DNA of 41,585 nucleotides, from positions 1 through 41,585 of IMG/VR virus record IMGVR_UViG_3300048091_000060, one strand, 5' to 3'. The position numbers were made by a program, and so were the translations under genes. Source of the stretch: a virus. The notes under the pieces were generated by a model. That model ran no database searches. It was not told the DNA's origin and was given only the letters and a program-made list of their open reading frames with translations. Below, piece by piece: positions 1,355 through 22,175 of this stretch; position 1 is the stretch's first letter, and every line of letters starts with the position of its first letter.

Positions 1355-1371
1355 CTGTCGAGTCGGTTAGC
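1355..1371 (-). promoter_or_regulatory. 17-bp conserved element, copy 1
   Basis: Reads GCTAACCGACTCGACAG on the minus strand. It lies 153 nt upstream of the secreted protein start, farther than most copies, and directly beside the 90-bp element. Confidence 0.7.
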
Positions 1372-4657: not shown

Positions 4658-4658
4658 C

Positions 4659-4680
4659 CACCTACGAAAAATCGCATGTG
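4659..4680. promoter_or_regulatory. 22-bp operator-like palindrome 2
   Basis: CACCTACGA, AAAA and TCGCATGTG. One base upstream of the -35 of PE1. Confidence 0.75.
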
Positions 4681-4763
4681 ACCCGGGTCTCATCGCACCG
4701 CGTGACGTGCAGGGAACGTACATCTATCTTTGGGTCCCAGACACGGACAGAAACGGACAAATA

Positions 4764-4791
4764 GGGGCCCCAGGCGCAATGCCCGGGGCCC
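4764..4791 (-). terminator. Intrinsic terminator of the 4805-5053 gene
   Basis: Minus-strand GGGCCCCGGGC / GCCTGGGGCCC with a short loop, followed by TATTTG. Confidence 0.7.
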
Positions 4792-4804
4792 TTCAGTGAG
4801 AGGA

Positions 4805-5053
4805 TCAGGCAGCGTCGGCAGCCTTCGCGCACGTCTTGCAGAGCTTCCGCCCGCCGGTGATGCGAGCAGCCGCTACAGCCTCGGCCAGGGTCTCGAAGGA
4901 CGCTCCGGTAGCCAGGCGGGACCGGGTCATAGCACCGCACACGTTCTGGGCCCAGTTGCTGACCACGGCGCCCGACTCGTTGCCCCCGCCCGTGGTGCGA
5001 GCCTCCATGCCAGCGATGTGGTTCGTGGTCCGGTTGTACTTGATGGTGAACAT
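4805..5053 (-). CDS. Small early-cassette protein with C-terminal CxxC
   Basis: 82 residues from ATG 5053 with GGGGAG 7 nt upstream. Residues 50-66 form an Ala-rich helix (FETLAEAVAAARITG). The C-terminus carries GRKLCKTCAKAADAA, a single CxxC that might bind zinc as a dimer or be redox active. The remainder is polar. Family not recognised. It has its own promoter, palindrome half-site and terminator, like its neighbours. Confidence 0.8.
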   Translation of the reverse strand: MFTIKYNRTTNHIAGMEARTTGGGNESGAVVSNWAQNVCGAMTRSRLATGASFETLAEAVAAARITGGRKLCKTCAKAADAA

Positions 5054-5092
5054 CTGGTGTCTCCCCTGGTTCGCTGCGTCCTTACGAGTGGA

Positions 5093-5122
5093 ACTCTACA
5101 CACGGGCGAGCCCCCTGCGCAA
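5093..5122 (-). promoter_or_regulatory. Early promoter PE2
   Basis: Minus strand TTGCGC (5122-5117), 18 bp, TAGAGT (5098-5093), followed by the shared TAGAGTTCCACTCGTAAG. Confidence 0.8.
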
Positions 5123-5123
5123 C

Positions 5124-5145
5124 CACCTACGAAAAAAGAGCCCCC
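5124..5145. promoter_or_regulatory. Operator half-site 3, fused to a terminator U-tract
   Basis: CACCTACGA is intact; the mirror half is replaced by the terminator of the upstream gene, so the minus strand reads TTTTTTCGTAGGTG directly after the hairpin. Confidence 0.65.
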
Positions 5146-5165
5146 AGGGTTTCCCCCAGGGGCTC
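5132..5165 (-). terminator. Intrinsic terminator of the 5171-5479 gene
   Basis: Minus-strand GAGCCCCTGGGGG / CCCTGGGGGCTC followed by six T; the U-tract overlaps operator half-site 3. Confidence 0.85.
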
Positions 5166-5170
5166 CACTG

Positions 5171-5479
5171 TCATGCGCTGTAGGTGAATCTCACCGTGGA
5201 CCAAGACTCGCCCTCATGCTCGTACGCGGTGGCCTCAGCGGGGAAGCCCCAGGAAGCTACCTCAACGGCGATCTCAGCGGCTACCGTGGCGGCGTTGGCC
5301 CCCGTGTCCACCGTGACGCTAATACGGCGCTCAGCGGCCCGTACGAAGATTCCCTGCGCCTGGTAGCGACGGGCGGCGGGGCTGATGTTGAAGCCTGCGG
5401 CCTTGAGTCGACGGCTCACAACCGGGCCGAGGCGGAGGGACGAGCGGTTACCGCTGTTCTGGGGGCGCTTACCGGCCAT
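5171..5479 (-). CDS. Small basic early-cassette protein
   Basis: 102 residues from ATG 5479 (AAGGA 9 nt upstream). The N-terminal third is basic (MAGKRPQNSGNRSSLRLG, SRRLKAAGFNISPAARR) and might touch nucleic acid; the rest alternates beta and Ala-rich helix (ISVTVDTGANAATVAAEIAV) and ends STVRFTYSA. No family recognised. It has its own promoter (5521-5549) and terminator. Confidence 0.8.
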   Translation of the reverse strand: MAGKRPQNSGNRSSLRLGPVVSRRLKAAGFNISPAARRYQAQGIFVRAAERRISVTVDTGANAATVAAEIAVEVASWGFPAEATAYEHEGESWSTVRFTYSA

Positions 5480-5520
5480 GGTCTCGGTTCCTTTCGGGGC
5501 TCTCTGTGCTGACAAGAGGA

Positions 5521-5549
5521 ACACTAGCCGCTCCGCCCCGCAGGCACAA
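5521..5549 (-). promoter_or_regulatory. Early promoter PE3
   Basis: Minus strand TTGTGC (5549-5544), 17 bp, TAGTGT (5526-5521). Diverged from PE1, PE2 and PE4 but with the same layout. Confidence 0.7.
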
Positions 5550-5551
5550 CC

Positions 5552-5573
5552 CACCTACGAAAAAGGGCCCCCG
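5552..5573. promoter_or_regulatory. Operator half-site 4, fused to a terminator U-tract
   Basis: CACCTACGA intact; mirror half replaced by the terminator. The minus strand reads GGGCCCTTTTTCGTAGGTG. Confidence 0.6.
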
Positions 5574-5588
5574 GTCTCCCAGGGGCCC
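5560..5588 (-). terminator. Intrinsic terminator of the 5596-5964 gene
   Basis: Minus-strand GGGGCCCC and GGGGGCCC arms followed by TTTTT; overlaps operator half-site 4. Confidence 0.8.
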
Positions 5589-5595
5589 CGACTGC

Positions 5596-5964
5596 CTAGC
5601 TCATGTAGAAGTACCGGCCGTAGGACGATCCACCGTTGTGAATGTTGATGTACCTCCGGCCCCGGTCGTTGGTCACCACGCTGACTGACACCTTGTACTG
5701 CCTGGCGTTCGCGATGGCGGCGCGCATCCGGTCCGGGCCGACGATCTTAAGGCTTCCGTCATACCCGCTGCGGGTCTGGAACGTCTGCGTGTCCTTGACG
5801 ATGTCTTCCACGGTCTCTCCCTTGTCGTTGAAGGCGGTCCAGCACTTCGCGTCCGCCAGTGCCATTGCCTTAGTCAGGTAGCCGGTGGTGCGGAACGCCA
5901 CACGGCCAGCCTGGAAAACGATCCCGTAGTGCTTGCCGTTCTTCGTGGTGACCGTGATGCTCAT
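5596..5964 (-). CDS. Early-cassette protein, hypothetical
   Basis: 122 residues from ATG 5964 (GGGGAG, 5 nt). Beta-rich N-terminus (MSITVTTKNGKHYGIVFQAG), a middle helix around AMALADAKCWTAFNDKGETVED, then RMRAAIANARQYKVSVSVV and a Tyr/Gly-rich C-terminus (NGGSSYGRYFYMS). Not recognised. Carries the full cassette: palindrome 6034-6055, promoter 6002-6031 and terminator 5560-5588. Confidence 0.8.
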   Translation of the reverse strand: MSITVTTKNGKHYGIVFQAGRVAFRTTGYLTKAMALADAKCWTAFNDKGETVEDIVKDTQTFQTRSGYDGSLKIVGPDRMRAAIANARQYKVSVSVVTNDRGRRYINIHNGGSSYGRYFYMS

Positions 5965-6001
5965 GTCCGCTCCCCTGCTCGCTGTTGTGCTTACGAGTGG
6001 A

Positions 6002-6031
6002 ACTCTATGCGCATCGGGCGAGCCCGCGCAA
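6002..6031 (-). promoter_or_regulatory. Early promoter PE4
   Basis: Minus strand TTGCGC (6031-6026), 18 bp, TAGAGT (6007-6002), followed by the shared TAGAGTTCCACTCGTAAG. Confidence 0.8.
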
Positions 6032-6033
6032 GG

Positions 6034-6055
6034 CACCTACGAAAATTCGTACGCA
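6034..6055. promoter_or_regulatory. 22-bp operator-like palindrome 5
   Basis: CACCTACGA, AAAT and TCGTACGCA. Two bases upstream of the -35 of PE4. Confidence 0.8.
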
Positions 6056-6059
6056 GAAA

Positions 6060-6087
6060 GGCCCCCAGCGCCGGAGCACTAGGGGCC
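6060..6087 (-). terminator. Terminator of the 6107-6343 gene
   Basis: Minus-strand GGCCCCTAG / CTGGGGGCC followed by TTTCTG. Confidence 0.7.
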
Positions 6088-6106
6088 AAACACGGACATT
6101 TAGGGG

Positions 6107-6343
6107 TCAGCGATTGCGCTTCAGCGAGGCGAAGAACGAACCCTTGCGAACACCCTCGGGCATCGTACCCAGCGCCTCGCCGATCAACGCGCGGATCTGC
6201 TCGGCCTCACCGTGGGCGATCTTCAGAGTCTTTTGGATGCCTCCCGCAGTGACGTAGTCAATCTCAACCGATGCGTACTTAGGTCCAGCGTTCAGCCGAC
6301 CCTCAGTGATTCGGCCGATGTTCTCAACGTGACGCAGGCTCAT
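6107..6343 (-). CDS. Small hypothetical protein
   Basis: 78 residues from ATG 6343 (GAGGGAG, 5 nt). A beta segment (KYASVEIDYVTAGGIQKTLKI) is followed by a helix (GEAEQIRALIGEALGT) and a basic tail (KGSFFASLKRNR). Not recognised. A palindrome half-site lies upstream at 6385 but no promoter like PE1-PE4 is evident, so it may be read through from the dCMP deaminase operon. Confidence 0.75.
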   Translation of the reverse strand: MSLRHVENIGRITEGRLNAGPKYASVEIDYVTAGGIQKTLKIAHGEAEQIRALIGEALGTMPEGVRKGSFFASLKRNR

Positions 6344-6384
6344 GATGTCTCCCTCGGGTGGTTACGGCGAGGACGCTACGGGGT

Positions 6385-6406
6385 CACCTACGAAAAAGCA
6401 AGCTTC
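6385..6406. promoter_or_regulatory. Operator half-site 6
   Basis: CACCTACGA followed by AAAAGC; the mirror half lies over the end of the dCMP deaminase gene and is not conserved. Confidence 0.5.
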
Positions 6407-6798
6407 CAGCGGGCAGTAGGACAGACGACCCGGGCAATCCCGCTCGCACGGATCAGGGTCCAGCACGCCGGGCAAGGGGCTCGGGTGGTGTACAGGGTCG
6501 CCCCTAGACGCTCCTCGGGCCGCGTGTGCCGGATGGCGTTTCGCTCGGCGTGGTCGGCCGTGCAGTTGCTGTAGTCGGTGTTCGCTGCACACTGCTCGTA
6601 GGTCAACTGCCCACGTGGGCAAGCACCTTCGGACAGGCAACCAGGTACACCGGCCGGGGGCCCGTTGTAGCCAGTCCCCCGAACCTCATGCGAAGCGTTC
6701 ACCAGGATGGCACCAACGGCGCTCCGCGTGCAGTCGGCCCGTGTGGCAACCCATTCGGCACCGGCCAGGAAGTAGGAATCCCAGTCGGGACGGCCCAT
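6388..6798 (-). CDS. dCMP deaminase
   Basis: 136 residues. Zinc deaminase signature: HAERNAI (His83, catalytic Glu85) and APCPAC (Cys109, Cys112). A Cys-rich insertion (VPGCLSEGACPRGQLTYEQC) before HAE is typical of deoxycytidylate deaminases, which may bind a second zinc there. It converts dCMP to dUMP, the substrate of ThyX encoded at 7191-7895. ATG 6798 has GGAG 5 nt upstream and overlaps the stop of a 49-residue ORF as TAATG. The longer in-frame ORF to 6999 is unlikely because it crosses two other genes. Confidence 0.93.
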   Translation of the reverse strand: MGRPDWDSYFLAGAEWVATRADCTRSAVGAILVNASHEVRGTGYNGPPAGVPGCLSEGACPRGQLTYEQCAANTDYSNCTADHAERNAIRHTRPEERLGATLYTTRAPCPACWTLIRASGIARVVCPTARWKLAFS

Positions 6799-8345: not shown

Positions 8346-8362
8346 CTGTCGGGTCGGTTAGC
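8346..8362 (-). promoter_or_regulatory. 17-bp conserved element, copy 2
   Basis: Reads GCTAACCGACCCGACAG on the minus strand, immediately after the ribonucleotide reductase stop and 42 nt before the next start. Confidence 0.7.
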
Positions 8363-8363
8363 A

Positions 8364-10397
8364 CTACTTCACGGGGCACGCACCGGACGCGCAGGCTTCG
8401 TCGTAAGAGGCATCTACGCTTCGCTGCGCCGACTCCTCGTAGGCAGCCTCAGACATGCGCTCGTAGGGGCTCTGCGGGCGCGTGAGGTCCGGGAACACAG
8501 TGGTCCCCTTCAGGGTCGGCAGGAAGCTGCGCAGGGTCTCCATGGCGTCTTCCAGCGAGATGGACCCAGGGGCAATGTTCACGGTGAAGCTGACAGCGTT
8601 GTTGGCGTAGTGCGTCTGGTACATCTCCTGGAACGCGAGCATGTCAGCGAAGGGGATTTCGTCGGCCGACTCGACCAGGTCTGCCGAGTAGCCGAGTGCC
8701 TCAACCTCCTCAACAAGCTTCTCTTTGGTGGGGAACTCAACCACCACGGTGTTGCCGGAAGCGTCGTACACGTCCTGCTCGACGGTGTAACCCTCAGCGC
8801 GGTACTGCTCGACCGTCGCCGCCTGCCGCTCATCCACGATGCTGAAGCGAACGCGCCGGATGAAGTGCCGGGCGTAGATCGGGTGGATTCCCTCGGTGGC
8901 TCCGGGCATCTTCGCGATGGTGCCAGTGGGGGCAACCGTGGTCGTCTTCACCGGGACCGGGATGCGAAGCTCATGCGCGTACTCGGCGGCAGCCTCGTTG
9001 ACGGTGGCCCGCATGTCTTCGAGCACCCGGAGCAGCTTGTAGTTGTCCGGCGCGCTGCTGTAGCGAACGCCCTGCTTGGCGAGGAAACCCTGTACGCCGA
9101 AGTGACCAACACCGATGCGGCGGTTACGGGCAAGCTTCGCTGCCTGCTTAGGGTCGTTGACGTCGCCGTACGTGGCACGGATCAGGAAGCGCGTCATCAG
9201 TCGGTGCGCTTCGTAGATGCCTGCATAGTCGGCGTTCTTACCCTTGGACGTAGGCGCGAACGCATCCAGGTTGACGTGACCCAGGTTGCAGTTTTCCCAG
9301 GCTTCGAGCGCTATCTCGCCACAGGGGTTAGTGGCAATGACCTCGTTCGGCTCACCGACGTTCGAAAGGTCACGGTTCCAGTAGCCAGGCTCACCGTTGT
9401 TCAACATGCCCTCGGTTGCAGCGCGATGGACAGCCACGGCGTGAGGATCCTTGGCGCTCAGGGCGGTAATGAACGCGTTATCGATCACCACGCTGATGTT
9501 GGTGGTCCAGTGCTTCCCGCTGTCGGCCTTACAGGCGATGAACTCGAAAATGGATGGGTCGTCCCACTCGACCATTGCCATACGAGCGCTGCGCCGGTTG
9601 CCTCCGGACACGACACATTCGGCGATGGCGTGATCCATTTCCATGGCGCCCAGGGGCGAGACGTGGGCTTCGCCAACCGAGTCATTCATGACCGAGGCAA
9701 TGTCCAGCATCATGCGGGCGAACGGGCGGGGGCCAGAGGCAGTGCCACCGAAGGTACGGAGCGGAGCCCCAGCACCACGCACACGGGAGACGTCATAGAC
9801 GCGCTCAGCGTGCTTCGCCTCGCGGTAGTAGGTATCGATCAGGTCGACCATTGCAGCGGCCCAACCCTCGCGGGAATCCTCGACAGCGAAGGCGCCGCCC
9901 CACTCATATGAGTAATGCTCAGACAGAACACCTGCGGCCTGCATGGCGGAGTAATCCGGGTGCTCAGGGTCACAAACGATGTGGACTTCCAGCGGACGGA
10001 CCGGGGCACCGAACGGCTTCAGGAAGCGAGACGAGTAGTTCGCGCCGACTCCCCCACCCTCCATGAGTCGCATGAAGGTGAAGTCAAAGTGTTCGCTCAG
10101 CGACTTCTCCCACCCGGATACGTGGCAGTTGAAAAGGTACTGACGGCCGGGGATACCAGAGGCCCAGAGATGACGTCCCGCAGGGAGGATCTTGAAGTCG
10201 TACATAAGCTCGATGAGGCGCTCACGCTCCCCCGGCTCGATACGTTCCCCAGGAACTAGGGCGGTGTTTCCGTCCACCACACGAGTCACGGTGTCCAGCC
10301 ACGATTCCCGCTCGCCGTTCGGCTTCACACGCTGGTACGTGCGCTCATAGACAGTCTGGCCGGTGGGACCAAAGGCGGGGGCATGGGTGATGCTCAA
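8364..10397 (-). CDS. Adenosylcobalamin-dependent (class II) ribonucleotide reductase
   Basis: 677 residues, single-chain type. NPCGE at 357-361 gives the thiyl Cys359 and Glu361; Cys370 (WENCNLG) lies 11 residues on and Cys91 (FNCHVSG) is its partner, the same spacing as Cys408/Cys419/Cys119 of the Lactobacillus leichmannii enzyme. The C-terminal CASGAC (Cys669, Cys674) is the external redox pair. It reduces ribonucleotides to deoxyribonucleotides using coenzyme B12 and needs no small subunit or oxygen; Streptomyces hosts make B12. The thioredoxin at 6944-7201 is the probable reductant. Preceded by an HNH gene with a 9-bp gap. Confidence 0.95.
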   Translation of the reverse strand: MSITHAPAFGPTGQTVYERTYQRVKPNGERESWLDTVTRVVDGNTALVPGERIEPGERERLIELMYDFKILPAGRHLWASGIPGRQYLFNCHVSGWEKSLSEHFDFTFMRLMEGGGVGANYSSRFLKPFGAPVRPLEVHIVCDPEHPDYSAMQAAGVLSEHYSYEWGGAFAVEDSREGWAAAMVDLIDTYYREAKHAERVYDVSRVRGAGAPLRTFGGTASGPRPFARMMLDIASVMNDSVGEAHVSPLGAMEMDHAIAECVVSGGNRRSARMAMVEWDDPSIFEFIACKADSGKHWTTNISVVIDNAFITALSAKDPHAVAVHRAATEGMLNNGEPGYWNRDLSNVGEPNEVIATNPCGEIALEAWENCNLGHVNLDAFAPTSKGKNADYAGIYEAHRLMTRFLIRATYGDVNDPKQAAKLARNRRIGVGHFGVQGFLAKQGVRYSSAPDNYKLLRVLEDMRATVNEAAAEYAHELRIPVPVKTTTVAPTGTIAKMPGATEGIHPIYARHFIRRVRFSIVDERQAATVEQYRAEGYTVEQDVYDASGNTVVVEFPTKEKLVEEVEALGYSADLVESADEIPFADMLAFQEMYQTHYANNAVSFTVNIAPGSISLEDAMETLRSFLPTLKGTTVFPDLTRPQSPYERMSEAAYEESAQRSVDASYDEACASGACPVK

Positions 10398-10406
10398 AGC
10401 AATTCC

Positions 10407-10661
10407 TTAGAACGTGCTCGCCCAGTCGGCGAGGCTCTTGTTTGACTTCGTCAGGTTGCATTCGGCGCAGGCGGGAACCAGGTTGTGAGCCCGATCCGCT
10501 CCGCCCTTGCTCAGTGGGATGACATGGTCTAGGTGAACAGCGGGATCCGAGCAGTAGCAGCAGGTTCCGCCCCATCGGGCGAAGATCTCTCGGCGCGAAT
10601 AGGGGGCCGCCCTGACCCGTCGGCGTGACTGGTACAGGGCGGCGTAGCGGGACGCGATCAC
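10407..10661 (-). CDS. HNH endonuclease
   Basis: 84 residues. CCYCSDP...HLDHVIPLSKGGAD...NLVPACAECN is a canonical zinc-bound HNH domain (Cys pairs, His-Asp-His, Asn). The body is little more than the domain. Start GTG 10661 overlaps the TGA of the sigma-like gene as GTGA, so it is coupled to it. It could be a free-standing homing nuclease inserted between the sigma-like and ribonucleotide reductase genes. Confidence 0.9.
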   Translation of the reverse strand: MIASRYAALYQSRRRVRAAPYSRREIFARWGGTCCYCSDPAVHLDHVIPLSKGGADRAHNLVPACAECNLTKSNKSLADWASTF

Positions 10662-11761
10662 TTCCGTCCGGCCTGCTTGCGCATCTCAACTGCGGCAGCT
10701 TCCCAGGCGAGGCGGTCAGCGTCGTCCGTGGCCACAAGGTCGATGTACTTAGCGGCGAACTCCGTGCGAGCCTGCGAGAGGTTCACCTTGCAAGTTCCCT
10801 CAGTGAAGTTGAGGAACTCCGCCAGTCCCTTGCGGTCGCACCCATCACCCCACCCGAAGTCAGAGACACCGCCGATGCCGAAGCAGTGGACCAGGACGAT
10901 GCGACGAGAGGGACGCATTCCAGCGAGGGCGGTGTGAATCTGCTCGATCCGCTCTGCCCGCTGCTCACGGCGCTCGTCGGTCACGTCCCGCAGGTCGGTG
11001 GACAGCTCACCATCGGCAACCGTGGAAACGTAGCTGCGCAGGATCGCGATTGCGTCGAGCACGTACCGACGAACCTTCGCCTCACGCGGAACCCAAACGC
11101 TGTCCTCAATGGCGTCCACGTCGTCAGCAGAGCGCGGGAGCGAGGCAACCAGGCCGGTGTAGCGGTCGAGCACCCGGAGCGCTTCCAGGGCGGCACCGTG
11201 GCCCACCTTCGGGCGAACATCCGGGGTCTCGTCGGTGACAGCGAGCGTGTGAAGGATGGACGTCTCATCGTCATCGTCAGACGTCTTGTCGATGGAAACC
11301 GGACCTTGCCATGCGAGGCGAGCAGCGTTCGCACGGTCGGCCGAAAGGCGCTTGCCCTTCGGAGGCTTGGTCTGGGCGAGCTTCTCGGCGAGGTGGAGAT
11401 CGCCGTCAGCCTCCGCCACCATGGCTTTGAAGGTGGAAAACGCATCCCGGTCCACGCCGCTGTTGCGCTCCGCCCCTACCTTCGCCTTCAGCTCACCGGC
11501 CATGGCGCCGTACAGGTACTCGCGGAAGGCATCCACCGAGTCACCAGACCAGCGAGGCAGGTACTCAAGCAGCGCCACCATGGCTTCCTGCCGGAACTCC
11601 TCGGCGTAGTCGGCGTACCGGGCCGGGTTGGTGGCCAGGGTTCCGGCCGACTTCGCCGCCAGGCTGGCTATTCGGCTGTCCATCTCGGCGAGGACTGCGG
11701 TAACGGCGTCCTGGTCATAAGCCTGGGCGGCGGTGATCTGGGCAAACGTGAGCTCGGACAT
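10658..11761 (-). CDS. Sigma factor-like protein
   Basis: 367 residues from ATG 11761 (AAGGGAG, 5 nt). Residues about 50-100 (ADYAEEFRQEAMVALLEYLP, then FREYLYGAMAGELKAK) resemble sigma-70 region 2. Residues about 285-345 resemble region 4: IHTALAGMRPSRRIVLVHCF, an insert with GDGCDRKGLAEFLN, then FTEGTCKVNLSQARTEF like a helix-turn-helix. The region between is long and acidic and lacks clear region 3. It may redirect host RNA polymerase to phage promoters; the 17-bp element found eight times is a possible target. It has its own operator-containing promoter (11928-11957), so it would be repressed in a lysogen. Confidence 0.65.
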   Translation of the reverse strand: MSELTFAQITAAQAYDQDAVTAVLAEMDSRIASLAAKSAGTLATNPARYADYAEEFRQEAMVALLEYLPRWSGDSVDAFREYLYGAMAGELKAKVGAERNSGVDRDAFSTFKAMVAEADGDLHLAEKLAQTKPPKGKRLSADRANAARLAWQGPVSIDKTSDDDDETSILHTLAVTDETPDVRPKVGHGAALEALRVLDRYTGLVASLPRSADDVDAIEDSVWVPREAKVRRYVLDAIAILRSYVSTVADGELSTDLRDVTDERREQRAERIEQIHTALAGMRPSRRIVLVHCFGIGGVSDFGWGDGCDRKGLAEFLNFTEGTCKVNLSQARTEFAAKYIDLVATDDADRLAWEAAAVEMRKQAGRK

Positions 11762-11788
11762 GGTGTCTCCCTTGGTTGCTGTGTGGCT

Positions 11789-11805
11789 CTGTCGAGTCGG
11801 TTAGC
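11789..11805 (-). promoter_or_regulatory. 17-bp conserved element, copy 3
   Basis: GCTAACCGACTCGACAG on the minus strand, 28 nt before the sigma-like start codon. Confidence 0.7.
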
Positions 11806-11927: not shown

Positions 11928-11957
11928 GTTCTACGTGATTTTTCGTAGGTGGGTCAA
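11928..11957 (-). promoter_or_regulatory. Early promoter PE6 with internal operator
   Basis: Minus strand TTGACC (11957-11952), 18 bp, TAGAAC (11933-11928). The spacer holds the half-site CACCTACGAAAAATCACG, so a bound repressor would occlude polymerase directly. Confidence 0.65.
11930..11951. promoter_or_regulatory. Operator half-site 8
   Basis: Right half TTCGTAGGTG intact on the plus strand; left half degenerate (TCTACGTGA). Lies between -35 and -10 of PE6. Confidence 0.65.
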
Positions 11958-12184: not shown

Positions 12185-14035
12185 CTACTTGTCAGCACCG
12201 TACAGACTCCCCCAACTCCGCTTGCCGATCTCGGCTTCTGCCTCGATGGGCACGCCGTACAGGTCGAATGTCATACAGCGCTCGATGGCACGCGCGTATT
12301 CCTGTGCTTCGGCCTGCGGCACCGAGCAGAGCACTTCGTCATGGATCGGCAGGCGCATCGTGTCTAGCAGCCCAGCTTCCTCCATGTTGATCAGCGACTG
12401 TCCCAGGCAGTCACGGGCAGCGCTCTGAACCCCGTAGTTCACAACGGCGTAGGTGCGGTCACGGTCCAGCGGCAGGCGACGACCGGTGACGCTGACATGC
12501 ACCATGCCGGTCTCGTACGCCTCGCGCTGCAAGCGGTTGGACATGCGCTTGATCTCCGGGTAGACCCGGTCATACGCAGCCATGGCCCGGCGGACGTCTT
12601 CCAGGGGCGCGCCAGTCTGGCGACTGATCGTCGCTGCACCACCGCCGTACACCTTGCCGAAGGCAATACCCTTAGAGATCTTGCGATGCTTCGCCGTGAA
12701 GTTCTCGCCGAACACCATGCGCGCCGTGAACGAGTGGAGATCCTCGCCCGCACCGATCGCCCGCTTCATCTGCTTGACGTCACCGAGGGCAGCGAGGACG
12801 CGAAGCTCAACCGCAGCAAAGTCGGTCGAGACCATGACTTCACCAGGCTCAGCGAGCAGAGCACGACGGATCGTCCAGTCACCCGACGGGAGAGTCTGAA
12901 GCGCAGGGCGAGTGATGGACATGCGTCCCGTGCGCGCCTGCATGCTGTTCACGAAGCAATGCACCCGACCGTCAGAGTCGGCTACGTCAAGGAAGGTTTC
13001 GGCGTAAGCCGTGTTCCACTTGCCCGCCCGCTTGCTCCGAAGGATGGCATCAGCGAGAGGGTTGGGAGTGCGCACGTTGAGACGCTGCCAAGAGTTCTGA
13101 TCAAGGTCAGCGAGTGCGCAGAGAACGGCCTTATCAGCTTTGAAGGCACCGGAGGCGGTTCGGTCCGTAAGGACCTCTCCCATGGCCTGTAGCGCGTCGG
13201 TGACCTGTCGGGACGCATTGATGTTCTCGACCCCGTAGCGGAGCGCCTGAGCCTCGTAACGGAGCGCCTCGGTCGACAGCTCAGAACTCAGCTGCTTCGT
13301 GTACTCGACGTCGAGCACCATTCCACGCCGCTGCATGATGGCGCAGATACGGGCTATCTCGTGCTCATAAGCAACCAGGCGGGGGCGAACGTCCAGCTTC
13401 GCAAGTTCAGCGTCTAGGGCCACGTCGAGACGAGACGTCAGCAGCACGTCAAGACCGGCGTACAGGAGGTAGGTCGGGTGGTCCAGCGGAATGCCTGCCC
13501 ACCCGGTTGCCTTAGTCAGCTTCAGCGAGCGGAACACGGCCGTGAGGTCCCCCTGAGTGTCGGGGCTAGCCGGGTCGATGTAGTAGGCCGCAAGAGGCTT
13601 CAGGGCCGTCCCCCGGCCCCCCTCCTGGGGCTGACGCGGATCGATGAGACCGGCCTTTAGGCGCGTGTCGATGGTGCGCGGGGCGAGATCCTCAATCGGC
13701 ATAGCCGCGTGTCGGTCGAGTACGGCCCAGTCAAACGGCGCGTTGTGGATCTGGAACTTACGACCCAGACGAAGTGCCCAGTAGACAGCCTCAGCGAAGA
13801 TGCCGCCCCACTCGAAGGGCAGAACCCATGCGGTCCGCGCGTCGCCGAACTGCACCGTGCGCAGACGGTAGCCAGGCGAGTAGATGTCAAGCCCAGTGGT
13901 CTCGGTGTCCAGCGCGATCGGTCCGCGTTGGTTGGCGTCCTGGAACCAGTACCGGAACGCGCGCAAGTCGTGTGAGTCTTCCGGGACCTTGACCTGTACG
14001 GGTTCACCGGCGATGGAGTAGGCGTAGATCTTCAA
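12185..14035 (-). CDS. DNA polymerase, family A
   Basis: 616 residues. The 3'-5' exonuclease domain has DTETTG (Asp43, Glu45), NAPFDWAVL (Asp103) and YAGLD (Asp196). Polymerase motifs: A STDFAAVELRVLA (Asp405), B KHRKISKGIAFGKVYGGGA (about 449-467), C PIHDEV (His565, Asp566, Glu567). No 5' nuclease domain. It would replicate the phage genome with the primase-helicase upstream. The start is TTG 14035 with GGAGG 7 nt upstream; an ATG CCT TGA minigene overlaps that start, which could tune initiation. A large hairpin built on a 22-bp palindrome lies just upstream. Confidence 0.95.
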   Translation of the reverse strand: MKIYAYSIAGEPVQVKVPEDSHDLRAFRYWFQDANQRGPIALDTETTGLDIYSPGYRLRTVQFGDARTAWVLPFEWGGIFAEAVYWALRLGRKFQIHNAPFDWAVLDRHAAMPIEDLAPRTIDTRLKAGLIDPRQPQEGGRGTALKPLAAYYIDPASPDTQGDLTAVFRSLKLTKATGWAGIPLDHPTYLLYAGLDVLLTSRLDVALDAELAKLDVRPRLVAYEHEIARICAIMQRRGMVLDVEYTKQLSSELSTEALRYEAQALRYGVENINASRQVTDALQAMGEVLTDRTASGAFKADKAVLCALADLDQNSWQRLNVRTPNPLADAILRSKRAGKWNTAYAETFLDVADSDGRVHCFVNSMQARTGRMSITRPALQTLPSGDWTIRRALLAEPGEVMVSTDFAAVELRVLAALGDVKQMKRAIGAGEDLHSFTARMVFGENFTAKHRKISKGIAFGKVYGGGAATISRQTGAPLEDVRRAMAAYDRVYPEIKRMSNRLQREAYETGMVHVSVTGRRLPLDRDRTYAVVNYGVQSAARDCLGQSLINMEEAGLLDTMRLPIHDEVLCSVPQAEAQEYARAIERCMTFDLYGVPIEAEAEIGKRSWGSLYGADK

Positions 14036-14136: not shown

Positions 14137-14153
14137 CTGTCGAGTGGGTTAGC
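14137..14153 (-). promoter_or_regulatory. 17-bp conserved element, copy 4
   Basis: GCTAACCCACTCGACAG on the minus strand. Its TAA is the stop codon of the primase-helicase, and it lies 102 nt before the polymerase start. Confidence 0.7.
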
Positions 14154-16587
14154 TGCTGAAGATGCCGGGTCCAGTCTTGGCCGGACCCTGGTCAGCGAGA
14201 CCGACACCGAACAGCGTGATCCCCTTCTCAGTCTTGGAGCGCGAGATACCCCGCTCCTCCATCGCGCTGTAAAACGTCTGACGCTTCCAACGCTCCTTGT
14301 GGGGAAGGTTCTCCGCCTCGCACCATTCCAGGTACGTGGTAAACGCTTCGTTGCCGAGGATGCGCGAGCCTTCGGCGGGGACCAGGACGCCGGGGAAGAA
14401 CCCAGACAGCGCGTCGCTGGTCTCCTTGTATTCCGTGGTTGCCTGCGAGATCGACTCGGGATCCTTCAGCCCCTCGGCAAACCACAGCATCGCCCCACGG
14501 ACGGCCCACGCTGCGATGCCCTGCGCCTCCGCACCAAGCTTCTTGTCAAGGTCGTGATCCTGCTCGTGGCGCTGAAAGGTGCGCTTGAACGGAATCATCT
14601 TGACTCGACGCCAGAGGCCGTTGTCCTGTCCACGGAACTTGGGCTTGTGGTTGGTGGCGAGCATCAGCAGAAAGGAGGGCTTGAATTCGAAGAATTCCTG
14701 CCGCAGGAACCGGGCCGAGACCATGTCCTTACCCGTGACGCGCTTCAGAACTGCCTCAGACATCGGCCGACCGGCCTCCCCCTCGGATGCCATAACGAAA
14801 CGGGCCCCGCGAAGCGCTGCAATGTCGTTGGGGATCCCGCCGCCCTGCTTCTCCTCGAAGGTGGCGAACGGAGTGGTCTTGGTGATGGTGCCAAAGACCG
14901 AAGACAGCGTGTCGGTCAGAACCGATTTGCCGTTAGCGCCCTTGCCCCACAGCACAGCGAAACACTGTTCGTCGGTGTGACCGGTGATGCCGTACCCGAT
15001 CAGCTTTTGCATGTACGGGACTAGGTCTTGGTTCTCCGGGAAAATCTGCGTGAGGAACTCTTCCCAGCGAGGGCACTTCGCCATGGGGTCATAGTTGATC
15101 GCCAGGCAGTACGTCAACATGTCTTCCTTGGCATGCGGGCGAAGCTGACCGGTGCGCAGTTCCACGGTGCCGTTGCGGAAGCTCAGGAGACCCGGCCGGT
15201 TGTCGAAATCCTGGGGGGTCACGTAGACCGAGGGAACCGAGCGAAGCTCTGTCATCAGCGCATCAATGCGGGACGTCATCGTGAATCCCTTGGACTCCGC
15301 GAGCTTCCCCGCCATGACCAGTGCGGCGCCCATGCGGTGAATCTCCTGACGAACCTTGACTTCGCTGCGCTCCCAGGTGCGGCCGTTCCACGTGTAGAAC
15401 CCGAGGCCGGGGGCGAACTTGATACGGCCGTCGGTCCACGCCACCAGGGCATGCGCGTTCATCGCATCGGAATCGCCGTAACGCTCGATCAGGCTTGCCA
15501 GGATGCGCCCGGCCTCCATGCCCTGATCACGACTGACGACGTCGGCGCCGGTAGCCTCCGCCAGTTCCACGGTGACAGCCTCGCGGCGAGCCTCGTGGGC
15601 ATCCTTGACGGGTCGGGCAGTCTTCACAGCGGAGTGGAGTTGGGCAGCGAACTCAACCGGCTCAAGCTGACGCCAGTCCGTGAGGTCAGACTTACGTCCG
15701 CTGTCCGGGATGCTCAGCGCGTAGACGTCCACACCGAACGGCTTCAGGCCATCGGCAAGCTTCCGGTTGAACGCCTGTCCCGCCGGGTCATTGTCGCCGC
15801 AGGCAATCACCATCGTGCCTCGGATACCCTCTGCGATCTCTTCGAGCAGCTCGGGCGAGGCCACCAGCGAGGCACCCCGGACCATGATGACGTCGTATCC
15901 CACGGCAACCGCTGTGAGCCCGTCTCCGGGCCCCTCAGTGATGAGAGTGACTCCGTACCCACCCTGGCCCTTGAAAACCCCGTAGGGAGCCCAGCGGAAG
16001 CCTTCAGGGTTGGTCAGGGAGACCCAGCGGCCCGGACAGTCGCCGGTAAGGTCCCGACCCTGCAACCCTCGCGGCGTGCCGTTGAAGTCGTTGAGCGGAA
16101 CCGTCAGCCGCGCGTAGCGCTTGTAAGCGGGAGACAGCGAGGACCACATGGGATTCACGGTCGTATCGTCTACACCGACTCCCAGTTCGTATGCGGTGTC
16201 AACGCTCATTCCGAACCGGTCGGCGAGGTAGTCACGGGCAACACCCGCCCAGTCGTCCCCGTAGTCGACCAGGGCATCACGGGCATCGTCCGCGTACATG
16301 GTCAGCGCGGCAACGTGCTTAGGGCCAACAAGCTCAGGCTTGGCACTGGCCACGGTGGGGGCGTCTCCCTCGACATCGAACATGTCCGGCCACGAGAGAC
16401 CGGCACTGAACACAACCTCGGCAGGCTTGCAACCGGCGCGGCAGGTGATGCGAACCTTGCGATCCTCGCCAACCCACAGGCGCAGGGACGGGCGGGAATC
16501 ACCGTGCGACGGGCACACCGCGAGGAACCCGCCGTCAGGCTGTTCGGAGACATCAGCGAAGTGGGCGAGCAAGTCGTCAATCTTCAT
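14149..16587 (-). CDS. Primase-helicase (P4-type, SF3 helicase)
   Basis: 812 residues in three parts. Zinc finger: Cys25, His28, Cys49, Cys53. Toprim primase: LITEGPGDG (Glu218) and ACGDNDPAG (Asp265, Asp267). SF3 helicase: a D5_N-type segment (about 400-530), Walker A WGKGANGKSVL (547-557), then FVMASEGE (acidic Walker B position) and LMLATNHKPKF sensor-like motif. It would prime and unwind for the family A polymerase encoded next. ATG 16587 has AAAGG 7 nt upstream; the 17-bp element copy 5 lies 33 nt before the start. Confidence 0.93.
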   Translation of the reverse strand: MKIDDLLAHFADVSEQPDGGFLAVCPSHGDSRPSLRLWVGEDRKVRITCRAGCKPAEVVFSAGLSWPDMFDVEGDAPTVASAKPELVGPKHVAALTMYADDARDALVDYGDDWAGVARDYLADRFGMSVDTAYELGVGVDDTTVNPMWSSLSPAYKRYARLTVPLNDFNGTPRGLQGRDLTGDCPGRWVSLTNPEGFRWAPYGVFKGQGGYGVTLITEGPGDGLTAVAVGYDVIMVRGASLVASPELLEEIAEGIRGTMVIACGDNDPAGQAFNRKLADGLKPFGVDVYALSIPDSGRKSDLTDWRQLEPVEFAAQLHSAVKTARPVKDAHEARREAVTVELAEATGADVVSRDQGMEAGRILASLIERYGDSDAMNAHALVAWTDGRIKFAPGLGFYTWNGRTWERSEVKVRQEIHRMGAALVMAGKLAESKGFTMTSRIDALMTELRSVPSVYVTPQDFDNRPGLLSFRNGTVELRTGQLRPHAKEDMLTYCLAINYDPMAKCPRWEEFLTQIFPENQDLVPYMQKLIGYGITGHTDEQCFAVLWGKGANGKSVLTDTLSSVFGTITKTTPFATFEEKQGGGIPNDIAALRGARFVMASEGEAGRPMSEAVLKRVTGKDMVSARFLRQEFFEFKPSFLLMLATNHKPKFRGQDNGLWRRVKMIPFKRTFQRHEQDHDLDKKLGAEAQGIAAWAVRGAMLWFAEGLKDPESISQATTEYKETSDALSGFFPGVLVPAEGSRILGNEAFTTYLEWCEAENLPHKERWKRQTFYSAMEERGISRSKTEKGITLFGVGLADQGPAKTGPGIFSS

Positions 16588-16619: not shown

Positions 16620-16636
16620 CTGTCGAGTCGGTTAGC
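16620..16636 (-). promoter_or_regulatory. 17-bp conserved element, copy 5
   Basis: GCTAACCGACTCGACAG on the minus strand, 33 nt before the primase-helicase start. Confidence 0.7.
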
Positions 16637-18196: not shown

Positions 18197-18925
18197 TTAC
18201 CGCTCCTCGCTGATCGCGTCGTTGTAGCTGCCCAGCACAGTGATAACCGGCTTCTTGAATTCGCGGTGCTCACCGGCCTTCGTTTCGTACTCCACGTGCT
18301 CGATCTCCAGTCGGCAAAGCGCCTCGCCGTCGACCTGGTCAAGCGCATCCTTGACTTCGTGGATGACCTCAGCGAGGGACCAGGCCGTAGCGATGAGCTT
18401 TCCGGCGCCCAGCTCATAGCCCTTACCAGCGAGGCGGAACGTGACGTTGATGGACGGGGACGGGCCACGCGGAGGGCGACGCCGGGCGAGGTCCTTACGC
18501 TCAGACATCAGCGTCGGGCAACCACACGGCTCGCCCTTGTCGTCCGGCAGGAGCGAGAACTCGCCGTCACACTCGTGGACCGGGCCACCGGCACCCCACT
18601 GGATCAGCTTGTCCTCAATGGACTTGGAGCCGTTGATGACGATCTCGACCGAGGGCGACTCAGTGAGGACGTGAAGGTGAAGCTTTGCGGTCGGGTTGTG
18701 CTCCTCGGGAGTGCCACCCATGAGTTCCGCGATGCCCTGCGCAACCGACGGGTCATCGGTCAGGACTCGCCAATTCGCAAGCGAGACCGGGTCGTTGCGC
18801 CGTGCCTGCTTGTTGAACACCTGCATGCCGGAACGGAACTGAAACACCGGCTGCTCGTAGTCGCGCTTGGGCTCGCGCTTGCGGGGCTTGGCGTCAGGGT
18901 CGGTGTCAAAGATGCGGAGGGCCAT
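18197..18925 (-). CDS. Gp3-like protein, probable recombination directionality factor
   Basis: 242 residues from ATG 18925 (MALRIFDTDPDAKPRKREPK). The pattern CGCPTLMSERKDLAR, then SINVTFRLAG, LGAGKLIATAWSLAEVI, matches my memory of the Gp3-like family named after the phiC31 directionality factor; two or three Cys around residue 125-140 may bind zinc. In phiC31 the Gp3 protein binds integrase and switches it to excision. Its neighbour is the Cas4-like gene, an arrangement seen in other Streptomyces phages. The Shine-Dalgarno is poor; GTG starts at 19024 would add 33 residues, and the 17-bp element at 19062 would fit that start better. Family members also occur in phages without serine integrases, so another DNA role is possible. 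Confidence 0.6.
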   Translation of the reverse strand: MALRIFDTDPDAKPRKREPKRDYEQPVFQFRSGMQVFNKQARRNDPVSLANWRVLTDDPSVAQGIAELMGGTPEEHNPTAKLHLHVLTESPSVEIVINGSKSIEDKLIQWGAGGPVHECDGEFSLLPDDKGEPCGCPTLMSERKDLARRRPPRGPSPSINVTFRLAGKGYELGAGKLIATAWSLAEVIHEVKDALDQVDGEALCRLEIEHVEYETKAGEHREFKKPVITVLGSYNDAISEER

Positions 18926-19061
18926 GGGAGGCTCGATTCTGTGAGGCGCAGGCGCGCAGTCTGTGAAGGTGGAACGGGGAGGGGCGGGGATTCGGCCACG
19001 TCGTCCCACAGGGACTTGACGCACACTCCGATCCGGCCGCCGCTCCCCCTTCGGTGTTGCT

Positions 19062-19078
19062 CTGTCGTGTCGGTTAGC
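19062..19078 (-). promoter_or_regulatory. 17-bp conserved element, copy 6
   Basis: GCTAACCGACACGACAG on the minus strand. It is 137 nt before ATG 18925 but only 36-38 nt before two GTG codons at 19026 and 19024. Confidence 0.7.
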
Positions 19079-19082
19079 TGCG

Positions 19083-19913
19083 CTACGCCCGTCGCTGTGT
19101 ACCGGTGATCAGCGCGCCATCGGTGGACCAGATGGGGTCACCAAGTACGGTCTTGCTCACGCGCCGGTCCCACTCGAACGTGCTACGCAGGTGCAGGAAG
19201 TGCGCGAACACGTCGGCCTCATCGATCCGCACAGGCTTGAATGCCGCCTGATCCTGCGTGATGTGAAGGACCACAGCGCCGTCAAACTTGGGCATGGCTT
19301 CGCGGGTACCGTCCGGCGAGACGATGAAGTCAGCGTGTGCGTAGGCGCTCATCTGGAGTGCGACATCCGGGTACGTGGCCTTAGACGTCTTCCAGTCAGC
19401 CATGACCAGGGCCGGTTCGCCGGTGGCATCAGGCTTGCCGTTCTCGTCGAGCTTCAGGCGGAGGATGCCATCGAACGACCCGGCGTACTCGTGGGTGTCG
19501 GACCAGGCCACATCCTCAGCGCGTACTAGCTCGGGCTGGACAGCGGCGAGGAACTGCTCGAAGTGACGCCGGTAAGGCTCCATGTCCGGGTGCACTCGGC
19601 CGACGTACTGACCCCTGATAAGGCGCTCGAACAGGTCGTGTGCGTCGCTGCCCACCTTCGCGCGGGTCTTGGTGTAGCGGGTCGCTGCGCCCTTCAGGTA
19701 CTGGACTGCGCCGTCACGGTCGCGCTGGGCCATCTGCTCGATGAAGTCCAGGGAGTCAACGGCGAGTTCGGCCACCATCTTCGCCTGCCAGTAGGCAAGG
19801 AACGGCTTAGGCAGCATGCCCACCACGGACGTCACACCCGGGTACTTAATATCCGGGGCGTCCTCGTTGAAGTAGAAGCGCGAACCGCTGCGCTGGATGG
19901 TGCGGATAGCCAC
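19083..19913 (-). CDS. Cas4/RecB-like PD-(D/E)XK nuclease
   Basis: 276 residues. Motifs of the family: GSDAHDLFERLI (His92), YAGSFDGILRL (Asp148), MADWKTSK (Asp173, Lys175) and LQMSAYAHAD (Gln187, Tyr191). No iron-sulfur Cys cluster is visible. Expected to be a 5'-3' exonuclease acting in recombination or replication. Start GTG 19913 has AAAGGGG 6 nt upstream, and that Shine-Dalgarno is inside a hairpin (19920-19948). No CRISPR array or other cas gene is present, so the Cas4 name reflects fold only. Confidence 0.88.
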   Translation of the reverse strand: MAIRTIQRSGSRFYFNEDAPDIKYPGVTSVVGMLPKPFLAYWQAKMVAELAVDSLDFIEQMAQRDRDGAVQYLKGAATRYTKTRAKVGSDAHDLFERLIRGQYVGRVHPDMEPYRRHFEQFLAAVQPELVRAEDVAWSDTHEYAGSFDGILRLKLDENGKPDATGEPALVMADWKTSKATYPDVALQMSAYAHADFIVSPDGTREAMPKFDGAVVLHITQDQAAFKPVRIDEADVFAHFLHLRSTFEWDRRVSKTVLGDPIWSTDGALITGTQRRA

Positions 19914-19950: not shown

Positions 19951-19967
19951 CTGTCGTGTGGGTTAGC
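19951..19967 (-). promoter_or_regulatory. 17-bp conserved element, copy 7
   Basis: GCTAACCCACACGACAG on the minus strand, 38 nt before the Cas4-like start and 3 bp from the second 90-bp element. Confidence 0.7.
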
Positions 19968-20426: not shown

Positions 20427-21419
20427 CTACAGCGTGGCGGCGATCATCTTCTTAATGGCCTCGTAGAGCTCTTCCAGCTCGGTGCGGATGGACTCCTTGG
20501 TCTCGTCGCTCGCTGCCTCGAAGTCTTCCGGCGTGGCCTTGATGAAGTCGGTGCGTACGCGCTTCACGAACGACTGCACACGCTCGTCCGGGGTGAGGTC
20601 CGCCCCTGACTCGATCTCGTGGCGCATCGGGTTCGGGTCGCCCAGCTCCTTGCGCTGCTGGTAACGCTCGCGGTTCAACTCTCCGTGACCCTTCAACTGC
20701 GCACCGTAAAGATCAGCGATGTACTCGGACACGGTGACATCTTCGGGCTTGGCTTCCAGCGCCTTCGCGTAGCGCTTCTGCTCCTCGGGGTCGTTCTCCA
20801 GCTCGCGCAGGTACTTGGCGCGGACGTCAGAGCGGTGGGACTGGACGGAGCGCCTGAGCTTGTCGAGAGCCTGCTCGTTGTCGTAGTTGTGCTCGAACCC
20901 GTCCCCAGCCTTGGCGTACAGCGCACGGGCCGCCTCCTTCGCAGCGTGGCTGTTACCGAGGATGTCAGGGTTGCCATCCTTGTTGGGGATGCGACGCCAC
21001 ATGTCCAGAACGATCGCCGCAACATCCTTGGCGAGATCGCTGGTCTTGACGTGGAGCTTGACACCCTCGGCGACGCGCTCGGCACCGTCGCTGATGAGCT
21101 CGGTTACGCCCTGGTAGACGCTGTAATCCTTGGGGTCGATGGCAGGCTCCTTGGGCTCCGCCTTCGCTACGGCCTTACCCTTGGGCTTGTCCTCGGTCAG
21201 CGCCTTCGCCACAGCGCGCCACGCGTCCCGTCGATCCTTCTTGAACTTGGTCCACGTCTGGTCATCCGGAGCCTTGCCACGACCAGGCAGCGAGCTGATG
21301 AGCGTCTCAGTCTCCTTGTCAAGCTCGGCCAGTCCCTCGGCGTTCTCAGCTTCCACCAGGGAGGCAGCTCGCTCGATGTTCGCGTTGATCTGCTCGATGG
21401 TGTTCTCTACGTCCGACAT
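20427..21419 (-). CDS. Large early protein of unknown function
   Basis: 330 residues, charged and almost wholly helical: Glu/Ala/Lys-rich N-terminus (MSDVENTIEQINANIERAAS, with ELDKETETLISSLPGRGK), a Lys/Pro/Ala linker at about 80-95, and a helical C-terminal half (LDKLRRSVQSHRSDVRAKYL). No Cys, no enzymatic motif seen. It is driven by the best early promoter of the window (TTGACA, 17 bp, TAGAGT) with an adjacent operator, so it should be highly expressed early and silent in a lysogen. I do not recognise the family. Confidence 0.85.
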   Translation of the reverse strand: MSDVENTIEQINANIERAASLVEAENAEGLAELDKETETLISSLPGRGKAPDDQTWTKFKKDRRDAWRAVAKALTEDKPKGKAVAKAEPKEPAIDPKDYSVYQGVTELISDGAERVAEGVKLHVKTSDLAKDVAAIVLDMWRRIPNKDGNPDILGNSHAAKEAARALYAKAGDGFEHNYDNEQALDKLRRSVQSHRSDVRAKYLRELENDPEEQKRYAKALEAKPEDVTVSEYIADLYGAQLKGHGELNRERYQQRKELGDPNPMRHEIESGADLTPDERVQSFVKRVRTDFIKATPEDFEAASDETKESIRTELEELYEAIKKMIAATL

Positions 21420-21483: not shown

Positions 21484-21485
21484 AC

Positions 21486-21507
21486 CACTTGCGAAAAATC
21501 GTAGGCG
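21486..21507. promoter_or_regulatory. 22-bp operator-like palindrome 11
   Basis: CACTTGCGA, AAAA and TCGTAGGCG. Two bases upstream of the PE5 -35, between the promoter and the preceding terminator. Confidence 0.75.
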
Positions 21508-21514
21508 CCAACGC

Positions 21515-21562: not shown

Positions 21563-22123
21563 TTAGAGGACAGCGGACAGGCGCTGCTGAAGATCGGGGA
21601 TGGTTGCCGTGTTGTAAACCGTGGCGTCTGCCTGGTAGTTGTCGAGTGCGGTCTCGCTACTGTGTGATGCAGCGTCACCGGTCAGCCGCTCGGGCCGGAC
21701 GATGCGAACCAGCTTGAAGCCACGGGCGCGCAACATGTCAGCTTCGTTGGGGTACCGGACGTCGGCCACGACCACGGGGATGTTGTACGCCTCAGCGTTG
21801 TTGAGCTTCCGCCGCAGGGCCGTGAGCCAGAACGAATCATCGTAGTGACGAACGGTCTGACCAGTGTGCTGAAGGACGCGCCGAACCTCTTGATAGTGAT
21901 CCTTGGCGTACTCCCAGCCGACATCCCGGATGAGCGCGGACAGGCGAGTGTGTATGCGCCCGTGCGAGTCGATCGACGTCGGTATCAGCGGGTCGAGCGC
22001 CAACGCCATTTCCTTGAGCGGGTCGGCGAAGGCAACACGTGTGTAGTGGTGCTCCCCCACCAGGTAAGCGGCAGCTGTGTCCTTACCGCTGCGTGCCTTA
22101 CCTATGATCCCGATGTTGTACAT
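21563..22123 (-). CDS. Deoxynucleoside monophosphate kinase
   Basis: 186 residues. P-loop GKARSGKDTAAAYL (8-21), then VAFADPLKEMALAL, a motif of phage dNMP kinases of the T4 gp1 type, and VVVADVRYPNEADML. It would phosphorylate dNMPs to dNDPs, completing the pathway with the dCMP deaminase, ThyX and ribonucleotide reductase. ATG 22123 is preceded by GGGGAGGGG, which is locked in a perfect 10-bp hairpin (22128-22157). The 17-bp element copy 8 is 36 nt upstream. Confidence 0.88.
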   Translation of the reverse strand: MYNIGIIGKARSGKDTAAAYLVGEHHYTRVAFADPLKEMALALDPLIPTSIDSHGRIHTRLSALIRDVGWEYAKDHYQEVRRVLQHTGQTVRHYDDSFWLTALRRKLNNAEAYNIPVVVADVRYPNEADMLRARGFKLVRIVRPERLTGDAASHSSETALDNYQADATVYNTATIPDLQQRLSAVL

Positions 22124-22158: not shown

Positions 22159-22175
22159 CTGTCGTGTCGGTTAGC
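22159..22175 (-). promoter_or_regulatory. 17-bp conserved element, copy 8
   Basis: GCTAACCGACACGACAG on the minus strand. Its first base is the last base of the stop codon of the 22175-22363 gene; 36 nt before the dNMP kinase start. Confidence 0.7.

Follow-up and report, generated by a model that had tools for sequence, protein, structure and literature searches.

phiC31 is a standard temperate phage of Streptomyces, and its early region carries repeated phage-specific promoters. Which protein reads such promoters, and whether it is the product of a gene next to the phage DNA polymerase gene, is the question raised by the stretch of DNA analysed here, the 41,585-base virus record of a Streptomyces-type phage (hereafter the window), in which the minus-strand gene order is that of the phiC31 group. 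Our literature search, which did not take in the older phiC31 promoter papers, found none that assigns a factor to the phage-specific promoters of phiC31 or to the element described below and its specificity; the older papers may anticipate part of the present findings.

The sigma-like gene and its product

The gene in question, its putative domains and the gene that follows it are located as follows.

10658–11761, minus strand: gene for a putative sigma-70-family protein (367 aa, ATG start), homolog of phiC31 gp12
11462–11629, minus strand: putative sigma region 2 (about residues 45–100), covarying with element positions 13–17
11207–11461, minus strand: putative sigma region 3 (about residues 101–185), covarying with element positions 7–12
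10727–10978, minus strand: putative sigma region 4 (about residues 262–345), covarying with element positions 1–6
10407–10661, minus strand: HNH endonuclease gene, overlapping the end of the sigma-like gene

The DNA polymerase I gene (12185–14035) precedes the sigma-like open reading frame, with 423 bp between the two, and the HNH endonuclease gene is probably part of the same transcript as the sigma-like gene. The window protein shares 42–47% identity with gp12 of phiC31, phiBT1, TG1 and the Vash group, with 92–94% of its length covered. The arrangement is shared as well: in phiC31 and its relatives (PHROG 15865; phiBT1, TG1, Vash and Rowa groups), the homologous protein is encoded after a neighbouring DNA polymerase gene, and several of these relatives already carry the RefSeq label ‘RNA polymerase sigma factor’. 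A search of a bacterial genome collection found six loci for the protein, all six in Streptomyces. Downstream of the sigma-like and HNH genes, the window also encodes an adenosylcobalamin-type ribonucleotide reductase (8364–10397, minus strand), with 69% DNA identity to the gene of R4-type Streptomyces phages; this gene is missing in the annotated phiC31 genome.

Profile comparisons support the assignment of the window protein to the sigma-70 family, with candidate regions 2, 3 and 4. The full-length protein matches PHROG 15865 ‘RNA polymerase sigma factor’ (7e-102). On its own it matches Pfam Sigma70_r2 (E 0.042) and Sigma70_r4_2 (E 0.0054), both under the gathering cut-off. Among 50 homologs at E <= 0.01, Sigma70_r2 is matched by 39 (best 2e-9), Sigma70_r3 by two (0.0012) and Sigma70_r4_2 by one. 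A profile built from the 50 homologs matched only sigma factors in the PDB, the best match being 8x6g_H in region 2 (5e-7), with a weak match to RpoD region 4 (0.035). The blocks resembling regions 2 and 4 that a preliminary description had picked out from the letters are therefore real by Pfam, PHROG and the 50-homolog profiles. That description overlooked region 3, which is present in most members as the motif RLSADRA.AARLAWQG.VSLD (in phage Heather SLDAPVGGDGDG, a version resembling region 3.2) and contains an SLD...DGDG...L motif; to our knowledge, ECF factors lack region 3. The region 2 sequence of the Attoomi homolog reads EDLRQEGRVAVLEAL. A recognition helix is presumed near residues 318–333 of region 4, and no region 1 was seen in the protein.

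The 17-bp element in the window and in related phages

Upstream of the sigma-like gene lies a 17-bp element, GCTAACCGACTCGACAG, which occurs eight times in the window when up to three mismatches are allowed, every time on the minus (coding) strand. Shuffled sequences gave a mean of 0.21 copies and a maximum of 3.

11789–11805, minus strand: element of the sigma-like gene itself, ending 28 nt before its ATG; proposed sigma-dependent promoter
14137–14153, minus strand: copy before the DNA polymerase I gene
16620–16636, minus strand: copy before the primase gene (14149–16587)
19062–19078, minus strand: copy upstream of a phrog_9220 gene (18197–19024)
19951–19967, minus strand: copy before the exonuclease gene (19083–19913)
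22159–22175, minus strand: copy before the dNMP kinase gene (21563–22123)
8346–8362, minus strand: copy 3' of the ribonucleotide reductase gene, before a 54-aa open reading frame
1355–1371, minus strand: copy upstream of tRNA genes (537–619, 731–801)

The copy before the sigma-like gene had been noticed at the outset, and the count against shuffles bears it out.

The exact element of the window is absent from the named relatives. We dropped an early reading of this absence as evidence against a shared system, because per-genome motif searches gave a phage-specific version in each case. In phiC31-type phages, an unbiased k-mer search returned two kinds of repeat between genes: an operator that is palindromic, and an element that is asymmetric and oriented. 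For 47 phages, the element in the gp12 leader was taken and the rest of the same phage searched with it; outside the leader, 397 copies lay on the coding strand versus 36 on the opposite strand. Many of the aligned elements follow the pattern GG-NNNN-CGACTC-NCTAG with phage-specific letters, and most versions lack the host -10 consensus at the expected place. The full version of the window is shared only with the genome G005. For Attoomi, Dubu and SASD1, whose homologs are divergent, the search yielded no element. The phiC31 gp12 relatives thus resemble the window in having an element in the gp12 leader and an operator upstream, and the window differs from them in its own element version and in a half-site that replaces the full operator palindrome.

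Two further kinds of repeat were seen in these phages. The motif first listed for Shaeky, Sycamore and Shady (L011, L012 and L018; about 32–38 kb) was set aside as another class, the gp12-matched element of these phages being different. This second motif (for example CACCGAGGGAACAGCCCGAGGG) is repeated before many small genes, with a host-type -10 on one side of it and the start codon on the other, and operator-like repeats stand upstream; it recalls the start-associated sequences of other actinophages. Separately, an inverted repeat over the -10/start region is frequent in gp12-leader elements, for example CTCACTC...GAGTGAG in Rowa; it was also seen in Sycamore, Shady, G012, G030, G033 and others, with arms that differ between phages. 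It is far commoner in gp12-leader copies than in the remaining ones (rank test, p 4e-9) and may be an autoregulatory site; the gp12-leader element of the window is without it.

Covariation of protein regions with element positions

To relate protein to element, we compared 45 phages using consensus elements built without the gp12-leader copies, so that the comparison is independent of the gene's own leader. The elements were anchored by hand on the core, and G042 and AbbeyMikolon were left out because confident alignment failed. Partial Mantel tests used the neighbouring PolI, the sole control protein, as the control for genome relatedness. Element distances at positions 1–6 track region 4 (r 0.34, p 0.001) and not region 2. 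Those at positions 13–17 track region 2 (r 0.36, p 0.001) and, less closely, region 4 (0.18, p 0.003). Positions 7–12 track region 3 (r 0.28, p 0.007) and also region 4 (0.22, p 0.003). For PolI, encoded about 450 bp away, no link to the element as a whole was left (0.04, p 0.32). As far as sequence can tell, the element changes with the sigma-like protein and not with the neighbouring DNA polymerase.

Finer comparisons placed these links within the protein. Sliding-window signals peaked at residues 66–96 for positions 13–17, at 106–146 for positions 7–12 and at about 286–334 for positions 1–6, region 4 giving some signal for positions 7–12 and 13–17 too. Mutual information with positions 1–6 was enriched 2.9-fold in region 4.2, and residues 326, 327, 330 and 332 of the presumed recognition helix were among the top pairs. 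In a nearest-neighbour test confined to phages whose closest region 4 and region 2 relatives differ, the region 4 relative was the better predictor of positions 1–6 (16 to 2, p 0.0013); for positions 13–17 the region 2 relative was better by 9 to 4, which is not significant.

Natural recombinants, compared by eye, follow the same division. The window and G005 are alike in having the helix CKVNLSQARTEF and the element start GCTAAC. Three other genomes (G001, G006 and G012) share a nearly identical helix (KKTRS.AK), all with GGTAAC; in G001, the change from GC to GG at the first two element positions is found in eight of eight copies. G001 and G006 combine this helix with a window-type region 2 and the 3' end GACAG, and G012 with another region 2 and GCTAG. 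G003 and G017 have DARSRGLKSF and TGCGTT in common, but neither region 2 nor the 3' end is the same in the two. Where region 4 has been swapped in recombinants, the 5' element halves are swapped genome-wide.

The pairing was also approached from the side of the DNA, by scanning a viral collection for exact matches to two element versions and examining nine contigs absent from the protein search. A full-length homolog is encoded by all four contigs with at least two copies and a length above 25 kb, and a divergent homolog by a fifth (38.5 kb, one copy seen); no homolog was found in the four fragments of 16–24 kb. The recognition helices of three full-length proteins found in this way resemble those of phages with the same element. 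Together with the PolI-controlled, domain-wise covariation, these contigs give good in silico support to the preliminary proposal that the sigma-like protein drives the genes with the element, its own included.

In canonical sigma-70 promoters, region 4 reads the upstream part, region 3 the middle and region 2 the downstream part, with 16–18 bp between the sites. The order 4-3-2 along the element is the same, and is the order expected of a sigma factor on a promoter. Because parts of the protein and parts of the element change in matching order across about 45 phages, the 17-bp element is very probably a promoter read by the phage sigma factor. We consider it highly likely that a sigma-70-family factor redirects host core RNA polymerase to this 17-bp phage promoter, with regions 2, 3 and 4 reading positions 13–17, 7–12 and 1–6, respectively.

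Start position, control and known systems

Where transcription would start was judged from the aligned elements. Information drops after position 17 and has a small second peak at positions 26–30, position 26 being mostly a pyrimidine and position 27 mostly a purine; upstream of the 17-bp block there is no -35-like signal or information peak. The element does not have the canonical bipartite layout, in which a -35 box lies 16–18 bp upstream of a -10 box. Start codons are distributed unevenly: ATGs opening frames of at least 70 codons number 12 at position 27 versus 0–3 at each other position from 19 to 38. Of these 12, a short frame in G016 may be due to chance and several are orthologous, which brings the independent gene kinds to about seven; they include integrases, dNMP kinases, an RNA ligase and an HNH gene. 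Start codons after longer leaders cluster at positions 48–57. This spike, computed here like the sigma signature, the element repeats and the domain-wise covariation, suggests that position 27 is +1, and for the sigma-like gene's own element +1 is predicted at about 11779.

Among the leaderless frames, the serine integrase frame opens with an ATG at element position 27 in Vash (L007, 38992), Samora (L008, 39235), Lilbooboo (L009, 38431) and Euratis (L005, 38721), upstream of the annotated integrase start in each. The extra N-terminal residues resemble those in G028, and the annotated starts may be too short.

With +1 at position 27, the block spans -26 to -10 and the frequent T15-A16 falls at -12 and -11. 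The sites of regions 4 and 2 would then be about 8 bp apart, as against 16–18 bp in canonical promoters. Such a compact promoter would bring region 4 roughly one helical turn nearer to the start than the standard -35, and region 4 must then occupy a new place on the holoenzyme; the position deduced for it (-26 to -21) is at odds with known holoenzyme geometry. That the gp12 family consists of diversified sigma/promoter pairs on a compact promoter, with regions 2, 3 and 4 at about -14 to -10, -20 to -15 and -26 to -21, strikes us as evenly balanced between true and false. The sigma assignment would survive another +1; the compact spacing would not. We also weighed a reading in which a box at positions 25–30 (GYGAAG-like) is the -10 and the block the -35, and rejected it because leaderless genes begin at position 27 and because, in some genes including the sigma-like gene, the start would fall in or past the ribosome-binding site.

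The same observations bear on other readings of the protein and the element. The protein might be an activator assembled from sigma-like DNA-binding parts; bound to the element, it would bring in the host holoenzyme, the host sigma being retained. That no region 1 was seen favours this, as does a region 4 half that lies too near the start for a standard holoenzyme. Against it, the protein has each of the three regions that read promoters, their covariation with the DNA follows the order of a sigma factor, and most element versions offer no host -10 consensus where one would be expected; we judge such an activator improbable. Even less probable is an RNA-level signal (a processing site or 5'-leader element) with position 27 as the cleavage point. 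The start codons at position 27 suit cleavage equally well, and a dyad is often present there in gp12 leaders, but the ordered tracking of sigma regions 2, 3 and 4 is then left unexplained.

Least credible to us is binding of the element by some other phage protein, with shared descent as the whole source of its covariation with the sigma-like protein. All of the data come from related phages, and PolI is the one protein used as control, which speaks for such a reading; against it, PolI retains no link of its own with the whole element, and recombination within the sigma gene shifts the 5' half with region 4 alone. The reading that we retain is that of a phage sigma factor with its own promoter.

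How the first sigma protein would be made is suggested by the DNA upstream of the gene and by a repressor homolog.

11928–11957, minus strand: host-type promoter TTGACC-18-TAGAAC, with an operator half-site in the spacer
20427–21419, minus strand: repressor homolog (phiC31 c; 25% identity over 240 aa, 2e-13)

TTGACC (11952–11957) and TAGAAC (11928–11933, without the final T of the consensus -10) are separated by 18 bp, and the operator-like segment between them (11929–11952) matches at 12 of 12 positions in one half and 2 of 12 in the other. The half-site between -35 and -10 had been reported in the preliminary description, and the arrangement proves to be kept in related phages: the segment is nearly identical in G001, G003 and G012, with a TTGCAC version in G005, G006 and G015. 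An operator overlapping a host-type promoter, as in control of the phiC31 kind, is thus found in the window and conserved in related phages; phiC31 relatives have a full operator palindrome about 205 bp before gene 12. As in phiC31, the repressor homolog has the dNMP kinase gene on one side and the exonuclease gene on the other; an operator-like site (21485–21508) lies upstream of it. The arrangement fits a putative two-step control in which the first promoter answers to the repressor and the second is driven by the sigma factor. The repressor step of the cascade first suggested is weaker than the sigma step; it appears sound, given the homolog, about 14 operator-like sites in the window and one of them over the host-type promoter. 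Five operator-like sites also lie in a 1.8-kb stretch of small open reading frames (4658–6407), several being half-sites that all point the same way (reading CACCTACGAAAAA on the plus strand).

In the following scheme, we infer that the protein binds core polymerase, where transcription actually starts, what the repressor does and in which order the steps occur. In a lysogen, the repressor would sit on the operator, which overlaps the host-type promoter some 190 bp upstream of the sigma gene. Upon infection or induction, host RNA polymerase would make the first sigma, which would then amplify itself through its own element and turn on the dNMP kinase, exonuclease, primase and DNA polymerase genes, the gene that follows ribonucleotide reductase, and the tRNA region.

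Part of this picture has precedents. Phages phiEco32 and 7-11 encode sigma factors that are distant sigma-70 relatives with short single-block promoters, and like the window they have a repeated phage-specific motif of about one block; their motif is 9–12 bp and of the extended -10 kind, (PMC4331800) whereas the window has a block of 17 bp, the upstream half of which goes with region 4. The early promoters of phiC31 resemble the proposed element promoter in that they, too, are repeated. Phage sigma factors with short single-block promoters and the sigma name of the gp12 family were already known. What the analysis adds is that protein and element pair up throughout the family, that a code links them domain by domain, and a proposal that the promoter is compact.

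For phiC31-type phages, the analysis puts forward a gene and a site for the phage promoters and supplies a predicted start position. Dozens of natural protein/promoter variants, recombinants included, offer a readable recognition code for regions 2, 3 and 4. The compact geometry, if true, would break the usual spacer rule and raise the question of how region 4 is held on the polymerase, and the sigma/promoter pairs could serve as orthogonal promoters in actinomycetes.
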